The notes below the pieces were generated by a model that was not told the origin of the DNA, searched no databases, and saw only the letters and a program-made list of their open reading frames with translations. Shown piece by piece: positions 48,990 through 55,389 of a stretch of DNA of 64,000 nucleotides. Origin of the DNA: Rhizophagus irregularis (lineage: Eukaryota; Glomeromycota; Glomeromycetes; Glomerales; Glomeraceae); contig NC_089436.1 in assembly GCF_026210795.1 (NCBI RefSeq), positions 1,426,001 to 1,490,000 of the forward strand, read 5' to 3'. Position 1 is the first letter of the stretch; the number at the start of each line of letters is the position of its first letter. The translations under genes and the position numbers were made by a program.

Positions 48990-50158
48990 AAGACCCTGGA
49001 TATCACATATATAACTCATAACTGATCTGCATAAATTTAGCATTTTTTGCTCCTGCTAAAATAAACCTAATTTACTAAAAATCAAATTATCACATTTTAA
49101 ATCTATACTAATTTTCTAAAACTCAAAATATGAGTTATAGTAAAATTCTAAATAATATAAGTTTAAATTTGCTTAATAAAATATAATTTTAGTTTATTAA
49201 AATTATTTGTAAATCAGTAAATTTAATTGTCAATTTAAACTTTCATTTGTTTTATCTTCAAGTAATGCAGTTGCAATAAGTCATGTATAATTACAATTAT
49301 TTATAATTGCAAAAAAATAAGTCATTATATTATATTTGTTAGTTTGAGATGTAATATCAAAAAATAGAATATCATAATAATACATTCATAAAAATTGTTG
49401 ATCTGATGTCATCTATAATAATCCACATAATTATCATTCAATTCCATTAAATTTAGTTTTTATAAACCAATATGAGTCATTTATTTGTTGTAAATATAAA
49501 ATTTTATTAAATTTGAAGTATCAAATTCAATTCTTGATAATAATTTCTTTTTTAAAATTTAGATGGCATTATATAAATTTTTCTATTAGATTTTTCTTTT
49601 AAGAAACTTTTCTCTTAAAAGCCAATTAATGGTTTATATGCCAATTATTTTATTTTGTATACAAAAATCTATAAATTGAATCATATCTTTACCAAGCTTA
49701 CGATATTTAGTAATATTAGTTGAAGAAAAAAGTATCATTTGATGATTGTATTTATCAACACAGTAATGAACAAAATTCTTAAAGAGTTTTTTAAAAGATT
49801 TCCATTAACTCTCCATTTATATTCTGTAACTTTAGACTGGTGATTTCTTTGATTATTTGTTTATAGTTACTTGCATAATAATATTTCTAATTAATTTTTC
49901 ATAGGATTTTATTATCATTATTTTCAGTTCTTTTCTGCTAAATACTAAAACCTTTCTTTAACATATAATCATTTAAAAATTTCTCTGCTTTATTCCAAAT
50001 TTGAAAAGTTTATTCTAAAGTTAAGTTTGAAATTGGATTTTCAATATCTTTTTAGATAAAAAATTGACAATTAGAAAATTTTGATGTTGTTTATCATGTA
50101 ATAATTCAACATTTGTTAAAGTTTCATTCAAAGAAAAATTAAAAATTTTTTCAGTCAT
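48990..50158 (-). pseudogene. MULE transposase remnant with FAR1-type N-terminus
   Basis: From an ATG at 50158 the minus strand carries, in order but in several frames with stops, the layout of FAR1/MULE transposases: MTEKIFNFSLNETLTNVELL, a FAR1-like block (IWNKAEKFLNDYMLKKGFSI), a short EYKWRVNGNLL-type zinc-cluster end, VDKYNHQMILFSSTNITKYR, then a DDE-core block with the first aspartate (DILFFDITSQTNKYNMTYFF) near 49340-49380. The third acidic residue region is not recognisable. It is strongly decayed, with many stops and frame changes, hence old. Plain cut-and-paste DNA transposon of the Mutator-like superfamily. Confidence 0.65.
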
Positions 50159-51570
50159 TTCTATAATGAGAAATTGTATAACAAGTAACAAAAAAAGTTT
50201 ACAATTGTAAAGTTTATTGTAATATGTAAAGCAAGCTTTTTATATGATTTATACAAATCATATGGAATCAGTATCATGTAAAAGAAGAAAATTTACCTCT
50301 GGTGAAATGTAATTATTTCCTATAAAGTTAATTTATAAATTAAAATTAATTATAATTTTTATTTTATATTTTTAAAGAATATAAAATAATTTTTTCAAAT
50401 ACATCTAAAAGGATTAATTACCATTAAAAACTTGCAATAATCTATATATTTTTAATGATAAGATTTGAAAAATTAAATTCAAATCTTCAAAATCTAATCA
50501 AAATATTTTTCCATAATTTTTTTCTTGACTTATAATTGGATTATCTTTTCTTTATATAAGCAAATATATGATTTTTAAATTTCAATATAGAATTGCAATT
50601 TTTTATATTATAAAATATCTTTTGCAACTTTATTTTTATATTTTCTGTAATAAAACTAAAAATATATCCTATTAATTTATATAATATATATTTAATATCT
50701 TTTTCATCATTAGTTATAAATGGAACTTTTAGTATAAGTAAATGAAGTAATATTTATTACAATTAAATTATTTACAAAGTTTTACAAAGTTATCAATTTG
50801 TTAATAATTCACTTTTAAAAAAAATCTTTTTATTATAAATTGAAGCTGGCAATTTATAAATAAAATATAATATTTTGTGTAAATTTTTACTAAATTTTAT
50901 AGTTTTATTATTATTTTTTTTATAATAATTTTCATATAATTTTTTATTTGATGATTTTTTTTCAAATTTTTTAAATTTAGATTTTTTTCTTTAAATAGTT
51001 TTTCAGATAATTTTAGATTTTTTTTTATCATAATAATCTCGGATTTTTTTATCAGGTAGCCCTTCAATTAGTTTTCAGATTAATTTTAAATTTTTTTCAT
51101 CAGATAGCCTCTCAAGCTGGTAATTTTTTATATAATCTCAAATTTTTTTTATCAAATACCTCTTTAGTTAGTTTCTTAGGTAATTTTAGATCTTTCCAAT
51201 AGATAATAATTCTAGATTTTCTTTATAAAAACTTCTCTTTAAATATTTTAAATATCTGATATTCTGACTTTTTATCAAGTTTATCTTTATTCTTTCTATA
51301 TAAGTTAATACTGTATCATTAATATTTATTTTCTTTATTTTTCTTTTTTTTTATCTTCATTATCATTATTTATATCATTACTGTTATTTTTATCAAAACT
51401 ATTATCTTTATTATCCTTAACATTTGTTTTAAAAGTTAATAATTAAGTAGAAAAAAAGATTATATTTTAATAAAACTTAACTAAAGTTTTAATATTAATA
51501 GAATTATCAGTAATAGTATTACAAGTACTTTCTATAAAATAAGAAAAACAATTACTTTCATACTTTTTTG
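50159..51570. other. AT-rich spacer with weak tandem repeats
   Basis: No gene. From about 50,960 to 51,250 an irregular 60-70 base unit recurs (TTTTCAGATAATTTTAGATT / TTATCAGGTAGCC / TCATCAGATAGCC), a decayed tandem repeat. Confidence 0.45.
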
Positions 51571-51873
51571 GGTATCCGATCAAAATCTCGACAGTCACTT
51601 GCACGACTAACACAAGATCGACAACAAAATCTCGACAATCCAAAATCTCGGCAATCCAAAATCCCTACAAGTCATTATATCGACAATTTTGTAATGTGTA
51701 TTCTAATAAAAAAATTTGTTGCAATATGTATAATATTTAGTTTAAATATGTTATAATTTTGTCGGGATTTTGACTTGTCAGGATTTTGACTTGTCAAAGA
51801 TATTGGATTGTCGAGATTTTGATGTCGGTCTTGTGTCAGTCGCTCAAATGATTTTCGAGATTTCGTACCAAAC
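51571..51873. mobile_element. MULE-like MITE of family B, copy 1
   Basis: 303 bases. Starts GGTATCCGATCAAAATCTCG and ends with imperfect inverted sequence ...GAGATTTCGTACCAAAC. CTTTTTTG lies on both sides (51563-51570 and 51874-51881), an 8-base target duplication. Almost the same sequence lies at 54364-54664. Repeated internal words ATCTCGACAATCC and their complements make it foldable. Confidence 0.88.
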
Positions 51874-52174
51874 CTTTTTTGTTATTAGTTAATTTCTGCA
51901 AAATTAAGGAAAGAATTCGGAATTATAAAGAATTGATTCTATTTTAAAAATAAACTTATGCACTTTATTTGAGAATGATGCAATAATTAATTAATTATGC
52001 AAAGAGAAAATTATAGCATTACAAAAGATTGATTGTTTTTTTTAGTATTTTGTAATAACGATGCTCATTAATGATTATTTATAAGTATACCTATTTGGTG
52101 AATGGTATAATAATGTATATTAATATATATTACCTATTATCTCAGCTGTAATTGTTATTGGGGTAAAAAACTAA
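51874..52174. other. Short spacer before secreted-protein gene
   Basis: AT-rich 3' flank of the secreted-protein gene. No gene or repeat other than the right target duplication of the preceding MITE. Confidence 0.4.
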
Positions 52175-52885
52175 TCATTTTTTTCCAACACTTTTTACAA
52201 CAACATTAGTTACAGCACTTTTTGAACCACTTGTATCAGCACTTTGACCACTTGTATCAGCACTTAGACCAGGTCCATCTCTTAGGAATCTACATTCTCC
52301 GTAACCTAATTCTTCAATTTCCCAAGAATTGTGGTCGGAACCAAAAAATACTATACACGTATCACTTGTATAATCGTGATCAATATAATACCAATAAGGA
52401 GTATCTTGTTGCGTACGAAAATTAATTCGATATGGTGTAGTACTATCTAAAGTTTGCAAAGTTATAATGTCATTTTTCGGAACTACTCCTGAATCACCAT
52501 TTTGGGGCATATGACCTCCACAATAGAAATTAATATATTCATCATGATGACTTAGACCACCAGGTATATAGGTTATGAAATTATGATTCGAATCTTCCAT
52601 CCAAAGACTACAAACATCATAGTCTGTAAAAAAAAAAAATAAGAATAATTAATATACAATTTTTTATAAATTTAATCATTAAATTTAAGACTTTCTTACT
52701 ATTTCCAAAGAGTGGCAAGACTAGAACCTCGAATGCTATTATATATCAAATAAATAAATTAAATTGTTATAAAGAATCGATTTAATATATATTTAAAAAA
52801 CATTACCTTCAGTGCCTGGTACAAAAGGTGTGATACCCATTAGACAGAAGATAATGGTAAGAATGAAAAAAGTTAGATGTTGCAT
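52175..52885 (-). CDS. Small secreted protein of unknown function
   Basis: Three exons (52885-52807, 52735-52700, 52623-52175), 187 residues. The N-terminus MQHLTFFILTIIFCLMGITP is a classical signal peptide. The mature part is rich in Tyr, Asp, His and Gly (YDVCSLWMEDSNHNF, YIPGGLSHHDEYINFYCGGH, TQQDTPYWYYIDHDYTSDTC) and has four cysteines that could pair in two bonds. The C-terminus has a short repeat SADTSGQSADTSG and a basic end. I recognise no family; the overall look suggests a beta-sandwich extracellular domain, which is only an impression. Exon 2 is 36 bases but keeps frame. An apoplastic or symbiotic-interface role is a guess based on secretion alone. Confidence 0.75.
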
Positions 52886-53703
52886 GATGGAAATTGCTAT
52901 TGATATATTAATGATGTTTTAATTTTCTTCAAGATGTAATAACAATTTATCTCAAGTTCCATTGAGAAAGGTATGTGCATATATATATAATTTTTTAGTG
53001 AAAAAGAAATCATAGTTATACTTTTTCATTTTCGTACTAAATCTATTAAATCTATTGAAATGAAAAATTGAAATATGCATGAATCTTTGCTTCATTCTTA
53101 GTGTGAAAATGGTATATCTCAATTAAATAACAATAACACCTCTATAAAAAATTTTATCCGTTATTTCTGTAATAACTCCGTAAAATGAATAACGATAAAT
53201 TCCGTTATTAATTCCGGAAATATGAGCCTTTTACGGAAAAAAGATTAAATATAAAAAACGGATCGACTTTTTTTACAGGGCACAAAAATGGAGTGTACTT
53301 CTTACCACAAATGAAAATAAACCTATTTTAGTAATTACAACGAATTCGCTATGCCGAAAATGTAGTACATTTGTTTATTTCATTATTTGACATTTTTGAC
53401 ATATTGTGAGATTGGAAAAAATTAGACCAATTAAATTATCGGCCCATTCTAATCAATGATGATTTAGGCCAGTGGAACATGGTTTGATTGAAAATTTACT
53501 CATTTTATAAAAGTAATTTGGGTATATCATGTGATAGATACTAATATAGATTTATAAATTACGTGATACAATTTTAATTTTTTTTCATAAATACTTTAGC
53601 AGAATAGCATTTATTAAGGTACGGAGTAAACCCGCGTGTCGTAACGCCATGATGATCGCATCAAATTACAGCTTATTCGAATGGTAAATTAAAATGGTGT
53701 TTA
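52886..53703. other. Upstream spacer of the secreted-protein gene
   Basis: AT-rich. Around 53150-53270 the words TCCGTTATT and TTTACGGAA recur, an inverted-repeat-like patch. No gene. Confidence 0.4.
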
Positions 53704-54179
53704 TCGCCGTTTTCAGAAATATGTGTATTTGTTATTTTGTAAAAGTAGTTCACGTGCAAAATTCGAAACTCGAAATTTTGTGTAACAATTAAAAATTATC
53801 CAATAATATTTATCCAGATTTCACGTGCTAACTATTAATAATTAATTATCACACCTTCGCGTACAAAAAACAATTACAATGAGTAATTGCGAAGTTGAAA
53901 AACCAGAAACCTTTAGTATAAATGTATAATATTAAATAGGAACCTGTTATATACATGTCAAAAGTGCCTTTACTGTAATACTATTAAACCAACAATGCAA
54001 CAAACTTTTCTTATCTTTTACAAGTGAATCTAAAATCTGTAATATCAAATGTTTAATCAATAAATAATTTATCAATTAATAAATTAAACATTAGTAATAG
54101 TTAGGGCGAACCATATTACTTTTAATTATTAATATTTATCTTAATCAATAAAGTAATTTTACAATAATAATAAATCAAA

Positions 54180-54464
54180 ATAAATACATTTAAAACAACA
54201 AGATTCAGTTTTTCTTCTTCCTTGACGACCTTTAAATGGATGAATTACACACAATCCCAATGATCATAAATTCTTCTGATCTCATACACAGTAGAAACGC
54301 CAATGTAAAGACTAAGAGCAGTTTCTATTGCTGAAAACCCATCAAGTTGATGGTAAATGATACGGTATCCGATCAAAATCTCGACAGTCACTTGCACGAC
54401 TAACACAAGATCGACAACAAAATCTCGACAATCCAAAATCTCGGCAATCCAAAATCCCGACAAG
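54180..54464 (-). pseudogene. Tc1/IS630-type transposase fragment (helix-turn-helix part)
   Basis: Minus-strand reading gives GFSAIETALSLYIGVSTVYE and RRIYDHWDC and then, after a one-frame shift, VIHPFKGRQGRRKT. The second piece matches the basic linker (R-G-R-P-R type) that follows the first helix-turn-helix of Tc1/mariner/IS630 transposases. No DDE residues can be found downstream. The family B MITE interrupts the coding region just upstream (higher coordinates). Non-functional. Confidence 0.6.
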
Positions 54465-54664
54465 TCATTATATCGACAATTTTGTGATGTGTGTTCTAAT
54501 AAAATAATTTTTGCAATATGTAATATTTAGTTTAAATGTGTTATAATTTTGTCGGGATTTTGACTTATCAGGATTTTGACTTGTCAAGATATTGGATTGT
54601 CGAGATTTTGTTGTCGGTCTTGTATCAGTCGCTCAAATGATTTTTGAGATTTCGTACCAAAACC
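54364..54664. mobile_element. MULE-like MITE of family B, copy 2, nested in a transposon relic
   Basis: 301 bases, about 93-95% like the copy at 51571-51873 by eye and in the same orientation. AAATGATAC stands exactly on both sides (54355-54363 and 54665-54673), a perfect 9-base target duplication as made by Mutator-like transposases. It interrupts the transposase region of the Tc1-like relic. No coding capacity. Confidence 0.92.
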
Positions 54665-55389
54665 AAATGATACACCATCTTATATCATTACTTAAAGTCT
54701 ACCATGTTAATGCTAAATATTTTAAAAGATGATAAATAAGTAAAATTTAAAACGAAATTAAATCACAATAAGAACCAGAATAGTCTATAATAGTTTTAAA
54801 TTTTCAAAAAAATGTTTCAGAAAAAAAAATCATGCAATATACCTCAGTAAGCAAGAATTATAAGAATCTCAACAAAGTACCGTGAGTTTCGTGATAAAGT
54901 AACTATCTATATATCATAAAATTTATATTAAAATCTTGTATAAAGTAATATATTTATATGGAAAGGAAAAAATCGCGTATTATTATAACAACTTACTGTC
55001 TTGTAATATATTCGTAAAGTTTTAACGCTATAAATTCGCAAAAAAATCGCAAAAATTCTCGTAAATATTAGCAAGTTTCGCGGCAAAAGAACTTTTCATA
55101 TATTATAAAACTTATGTCAAAGCTTTATATAGAGCAGTATGTTCATATGGAAAAAAAAAATCGCGGTTTGTCTTAGTAAAGTGTAAAAGTTTTATATTCG
55201 GGAAAATTAAAATGTAAGTGATCACCGTGTGGCTTGGATTACACATATTTCTGAAAACGGCGATAAAGCCGATCGGATCTGATATTTTAAGCCTGGTGTT
55301 ATTTAAGCCATAAACATAGTGATCATAAGCCTCAATTCATATTATAAGATATTTCTATCATCATACCGAACAACTTTGAGGAAAAAAAA

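Follow-up and report, generated by a model that had tools for sequence, protein, structure and literature searches.

A family of short hairpin elements in the genome of Rhizophagus irregularis, two copies of which lie in the 64,000-nucleotide stretch analysed here (the window, positions 1426001-1490000 of contig 8), is in all probability (roughly 0.9) a non-autonomous, foldback-like Mutator/MULE MITE, most likely moved by the FLYWCH/MULE transposase of a longer element (about 2.0 kb) that shares its termini, and leaving 9-base target-site duplications (TSDs). The MULE assignment follows from the ends that the copies have in common, the size of the family, the 9-base TSDs, the existence of filled and empty sites, and longer MULEs with the same termini. 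All genome searches covered 146,748,485 bases in 32 contigs.

The two copies and their hairpin structure

Copy 1 (W1, 304 bases) occupies positions 51571-51874 and copy 2 (W2, 301 bases) positions 54364-54664, both on the plus strand. The first-pass annotation had described two elements in the same orientation that match along their length, which is confirmed: the copies are 97.0% identical (291 of 300 aligned bases, with 5 gap positions). Direct repeats of 147, 91, and 76 bases link them, the longest of these starting or stopping no more than a few bases away from an end of the element, and the flanks reach 65-74% identity when force-aligned end to end, a value to be read without a computed background. 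Both copies start with GGTATCCGATC (at 51571 and 54364; in longer form, GGTATCCGATCAAAATCTCG). The 3′ end is CGTACCAAACC up to 51874 in copy 1 and CGTACCAAAACC up to 54664 in copy 2 (in longer form, TGAGATTTCGTACCAAAACC), copy 1 having one A fewer near this end. The longest frame among those of at least 50 aa over the two copies has 93 aa, extends outside the element, and has no Pfam match; no coding capacity was seen in the copies, which supports the earlier view of them as non-autonomous. Between the copies, on the minus strand (52175-52648), there is a 157-aa frame with no Pfam match that, judged by eye, may be an exon of a gene for a small secreted protein.

The terminal inverted sequences had been described as short and imperfect. 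They are imperfect, but they are not short. In copy 1, part of the left arm (51583-51648, plus strand) pairs with part of the right arm (51798-51863, minus strand) over 66 nt with 86% complementarity, and positions 51572-51878 fold into a single hairpin (single-stranded DNA energy of −72.9, versus −27.1 with a standard deviation of 3.5 for 100 shuffles; z = −13). In the consensus, 93 of 111 aligned positions are in agreement between the arms, gaps uncounted. A single imperfect hairpin takes up most of the element, with asymmetry confined to the outermost bases: the reverse complement of the usual 3′ end starts GGTTTTGGTACGAAATCTCG, the first three bases of which agree with the 5′ end while the next nine mostly differ, after which the arms match well. 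The arms are partly made of 16-base repeats, with a unit like CAAAATCTCGACAATC, which are putative transposase binding sites. Many arm deletions are found in the alignment of the copies, and these may come from slippage between the 16-base repeats. Long inverted repeats composed of short ones and folding over most of the element give the family a foldback-like structure.

Paired changes do not establish that the palindrome is maintained. Among 27 of the 31 near-full-length copies (one member of each of four same-site pairs being dropped), double-sided changes left 5 cells paired and 5 unpaired, whereas 160 cells were broken by a one-sided change; 18 one-sided changes created a pair, and 590 cells were gapped on one side. 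With partners shifted by 1-3 columns as a control, there were 0-3 paired double changes, and the margin between these and the 5 observed is too small to support maintenance.

Copies, target sites, and empty sites in the genome

A genome search with copy 1 gave at least 89 matches (with the best 40 of 101 candidates scored). When the terminal patterns were searched with up to 3 mismatches, using the reversed patterns as controls, the 5′ end was found at 94 sites (versus 3) and the 3′ end at 105 sites (versus 1), 100 of the latter being listed. Among the 194 sites listed, there are 49 inverted end pairs within 20 kb, of which 47 span 69-463 bases and two span 5.2 and 7.0 kb. The set of loci analysed consists of 55 fetched loci and the two window copies. 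Both ends are kept, within the set error limits, in 48 of these 57; in the other 9, one or both ends were not found within these limits. The 48 two-ended copies have lengths of 69-463 bases (median 278). Those of 240-335 bases, 31 in number, diverge by 0.4-16.7% from their own consensus (median 3.0%, read off the list), with copy 1 at 2.4% and copy 2 at 1.0%, and certain more diverged copies have in common an extra central sequence that is absent from the window copies. The family is therefore short, non-coding, and multicopy (48 copies) with inverted repeats, as befits a MITE. In a test for CpG decay, transitions affect 58 of 749 CpG cells and 103 of 2133 other C/G cells in the 31 copies (odds ratio 1.65), with a p value of 0.004 that is only indicative because the copies are related.

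Copy 2 is flanked on both sides by AAATGATAC (54355-54363 and 54665-54673; 9/9). Copy 1 has ACTTTTTTG on its left (51562-51570), the last 8 bases of which match exactly CTTTTTTG on its right (51874-51881), where the first C is also the last base of the element; alternatively, ACTTTTTTG can be set against CCTTTTTTG with 8/9 identical. The exact 8- and 9-base duplications reported at first are thus present, and the former reads best as a damaged 9-base duplication. When the k bases flanking each side of the 48 copies were compared for k from 5 to 14, the identity at k = 9 was 0.678, whereas the permuted values averaged 0.339 and did not exceed 0.396 (200 permutations). At k = 8 the identity was 0.443 (permuted maximum 0.388), and at all other lengths it fell inside the permuted range. 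At 9 bases, 21 of the 48 copies have 8 or 9 identical positions, 13 of them being perfect, whereas permutation gives a mean of 0.13 such copies and a maximum of 2 (2000 permutations). The genome-wide search for further copies with duplications of 8-10 bases has accordingly produced dozens of ends and 48 two-ended copies with a peak at 9.

At fixed register, 27 of the 48 copies fall below 8/9. Sorted by hand, 6 of these have 7/9, and 8, including copy 1, have 7-9 matching bases with a shifted end or length; no convincing duplication was found in the remaining 13 of 48. Copies lacking any duplication had been named at the outset as evidence against the proposal; that evidence is present in part, in these 13 copies, and age can explain it. 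The 48 copies also include five pairs with a common target site and flanks, which have therefore multiplied along with the host sequence, and when each site is counted once (by hand), 19 of 43 reach 8/9.

Five copies have only 136 (L068), 116 (L072), 108 (L075), 85 (L067), and 69 (L083) bases. The duplications are perfect over 9 bases in the first three and 7/9 in the last two. On the basis of those three, one may tentatively suggest, although we consider it rather doubtful, that a foldback MULE of the Phantom type works in a glomeromycete and can move elements slightly over 100 bases long that consist almost entirely of their ends, so that the transposase would need no more than some tens of bases on either side. 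Shrinkage after insertion is a possible alternative for the same three copies.

Empty sites were searched with the flanks of copy 2 joined through a single duplication (290 bases), which gave 13 matches in all. The repeat that hosts copy 2, taken as window positions 54180-54779, lacks the insertion at four places (89-99%) and carries one at the same position on C20. The joined flanks match C15, C10 (3893700), and C19 at 98-99% over 289-290 of the 290 bases, and C10:238218 at 89% without interruption. A single AAATGATAC is visible at the junction at three of these four places; the exact single-copy string is absent from the C19 locus, although the match there is continuous. Five more diverged matches (74-84%) likewise cross the junction, whereas the filled places (the window and C20) each match as two halves only. 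The flanks of the C20 copy are 99.4-100% identical to those of copy 2 (gaps uncounted), and the site is the same. Copy 2 and the C20 copy hence represent one insertion, duplicated later with its surroundings. Copy 2 and L023, its twin at the same site, show 5 differences over 275 bases of the element versus 2 over 696 bases of the flanks (p = 0.02, for this one pair only), and gaps of 10 and 16 bases in one arm. A perfect 28-base inverted repeat (53700-53727 and 55240-55267), with arms 1.5 kb apart, brackets copy 2 and possibly corresponds to the ends of the host repeat.

Longer MULEs with the same termini and competing explanations

Two longer elements have the termini of the MITE, and both are flanked by perfect 9-base duplications. 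The first (C16:2231879-2238890, L047) has 7,012 bases, the TSD CAAATAAAT (9/9), and a 403-aa frame combining a MULE domain (PF10551, 4.6e-19) with a FLYWCH zinc finger (PF04500, 1.1e-8), an association described for Phantom elements. The second (C17:88392-90358) has 1,967 bases, with GAAGTAAAG on both sides (9/9). Its transposase, assessed by its match to the C16 protein, shows 76-77% identity in two pieces, and the two elements match in four blocks at 86-92%. The C16 element has in addition two stretches of about 3.4 and 1.5 kb, the first with a hAT-like match (PF14372, 7e-8), that are best read as insertions swelling this version. Residues D216, D286, and E375, which we take to be the catalytic triad, are invariant in three related proteins. 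Local BLASTN alignments of the MITE give 82-84% identity over 100-115 bases with the C16 ends and 77-78% over 91-110 bases with the C17 ends; global alignment with the MULE ends gives 81-85% over 123-128 aligned bases, gaps uncounted. The MITE thus shares its inverted repeats with an element encoding PF10551, and the target duplication, which in MULEs has 8-11 bases and often 9, peaks at 9 in the MITE and is 9/9 on both longer elements. The earlier proposal of a MULE-type MITE is in this way supported both by the 9-base peak over the 48 copies and by the two longer elements, which carry MULE transposase sequence between termini like those of the MITE.

The C16 and C17 elements likely represent the helper lineage. 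A FLYWCH/MULE transposase from an element of about 2.0 kb with these termini would bind the ends of the MITE and, we infer, move it in trans; insertion would occur at cuts staggered by 9 bases, the repair of which would leave the 9-base duplication. The comparison of ends with MULEs of the same genome, initially advised for intact ones, did reveal common termini in these longer elements, although neither looks intact. No working transposase with the MITE termini was found: stop codons occur in the C17 copy, and the one on C16 is interrupted when set against C17. Because both transposase copies look broken, there is no sign of present mobility. In its centre the MITE resembles the MULEs only weakly and over short distances (16 and 39 bases; best E = 0.001), and an origin by simple internal deletion of the known MULE copies was rejected on this ground.

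The search for parents covered 20 loci around isolated or related ends. Pfam was applied to four frames of the C16 element (L047) and to six from six other loci, and at the other 13 loci the analysis was limited to ends and long frames. A matching end pair and a transposase domain occur together in 1 of the 20 (C16), and no transposase domain was found in the six frames of the six other loci scanned. The two ends that lie 5.2 kb apart on C4 (L048) enclose no frame of 120 aa, and one of them is that of a sister MITE. At C22 (L053), the exact 3′ end falls within a MITE copy of 138 bases, which lies near MULE fragments of 38-42% identity. A genome search with PF10551 gave 407 candidates, of which the best 150 were scored, and the genome therefore contains many other MULEs.

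The C16 protein itself has 58 matches in the genome, and ends were inspected at five loci and, in part, at C2. One FLYWCH/MULE-related locus (L089:90-2468; C16:625089-627467) has inverted repeats of 192 bases with 84% complementarity; its related GGG ends (C16:625000), with an 8-base matching flank seen by eye, resemble those of the sister MITE family, of which it is a possible helper. Another relative of the C16 protein, with an open frame (L088:469-2839; C10:3064468-3066838), has a different end built of another short repeat, TTTCACCGAAAATCA-like, and repeat-built ends therefore recur in the clade of this protein. At C14:2828100 (L087) the inverted repeats reported are AT-rich, and no tie was established between the terminus at C2:2261353 and the MULE at C2:2269379. 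A scan for paired TSDs and inverted repeats returned chance-like pairs only and missed the C17 element, the ends of which were read directly. The sister family consists of hairpin MITEs with ends GGGTTTGGTACGAAATCCCG / GGGATCCGTACAAAATACCG (L064:276-601, C7:347575; L065:263-576, C9:995562) and has at least 79 matches (with the best 40 of 71 candidates scored). TAAAATTC flanks L064 on either side, and no duplication is evident by eye at L065.

A source closer at hand had been suggested, namely a decayed MULE nearby; its distance from copy 1 is about 1.5 kb. The remnant (minus strand, about 49200-50040, with approximate coordinates set by eye from the translation) is plausibly a decayed MULE: with stops as X, the translation of about 49.2-49.5 kb weakly matches PF21056 (6.2e-5, 23.4 bits) and PF10551 (0.0047, 17.8 bits). 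Both scores are under the cut-offs (27.2 and 27.6 bits, respectively), and a second piece at about 49.8-50.0 kb and two short nearby frames have no MULE or transposase match in Pfam. The C16 FLYWCH/MULE protein, encoded by an element that does have the MITE ends, has no match at the remnant; its three matches in the window are at chance level (E of 0.9 to 9.3) and lie elsewhere. In spite of its proximity, the remnant more likely belongs to a lineage other than that of the MITE family, of which it is probably not the source; we give that origin little chance.

Only marginally better placed, and still very unlikely, is movement by another superfamily that also duplicates 8 or 9 bases (hAT, P, or Merlin), with the likeness to MULE ends being then secondary. 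The termini start with GG, as they do in Merlin, copy 1 taken alone has an 8-base duplication, and the 7-kb C16 element includes the hAT-like sequence. Across the family, however, the duplication peaks at 9 and not at 8 (0.678 versus 0.443), and the C17 element, with its shared termini, aligns with C16 to the left and right of the hAT-like stretch but does not contain it, so that a later insertion is the best reading of that stretch. The least credible explanation is that the window copies arose by local segmental duplication or are parts of a longer repeat. No direct repeat of at least 25 bases between the two places was found to extend past the element; the duplications of the two copies differ, and the repeat that hosts copy 2 also occurs without the MITE. 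The short distance (2.8 kb), the common orientation, and the five pairs elsewhere that multiplied with host sequence fit such an origin, which we nevertheless regard as highly improbable.

Comparison with known systems

The family is a tidy one of a known kind, a MULE-derived hairpin MITE. No description of it was found in the literature searched, the coverage of which is incomplete and leaves the curated repeat library outside the comparison. That library includes MULE families for R. irregularis, and the methods define a MITE class (PMC11075540, in the sections available); MULEs are described near expanded gene families (PMC8647823, likewise in part). In the accessible text of these two papers, as distinct from the repeat library, neither the family nor its termini and duplications are described. 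The present data connect a hairpin MITE with a defined lineage of longer MULEs in one genome, that of the model mycorrhizal fungus. The two form a concrete, testable pair, with ends, target duplication, and empty sites known, for asking about ongoing movement. Such a pair is useful because MULEs adjoin expanded genes (PMC8647823) and because two thirds of the transposable elements of R. irregularis are said to be unclassified (PMC11075540), according to the available portions of both sources.

Phantom elements, in the parts of PMC3169594 and PMC6446971 that were accessible, have an N-terminal FLYWCH zinc finger followed by a MULE domain and 8-10-base duplications. The hosts given in the accessible part of PMC6446971 are flatworms, crustaceans, arthropods, tunicates, and an ichnovirus, with a Phantom-Ca group in Ascomycota; FLYWCH also occurs in other MULE groups, in oomycetes and parabasalids. 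The C16 transposase resembles Phantom in its FLYWCH and MULE domains, that is, by domain content rather than by a tree, and the duplications fall in the same 8-10-base range.

The closest described system is that of the Tm1 Mutator/Foldback elements of root-knot nematodes. As far as the available part of PMC3169594 describes them, their duplications are mostly of 9 bases (8-10 bases in 45 of 53 elements), and they have composite long inverted repeats with asymmetric outermost motifs, inner repeats of 13-15 bases, MITE-like members, and a transposase-coding element of 2,593 bases that the authors assigned to the Phantom subclass. The Rhizophagus family is similar to Tm1, thus described, in its mostly 9-base duplications, composite long inverted repeats, asymmetric outer motifs, and MITE-like members, with inner repeats of 16 instead of 13-15 bases and a coding element of similar size (1,967 bases on C17 versus 2,593). 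It differs in its terminal sequence and in the kingdom of its host, and Tm1, in the same partial account, has members carrying histone hairpins.
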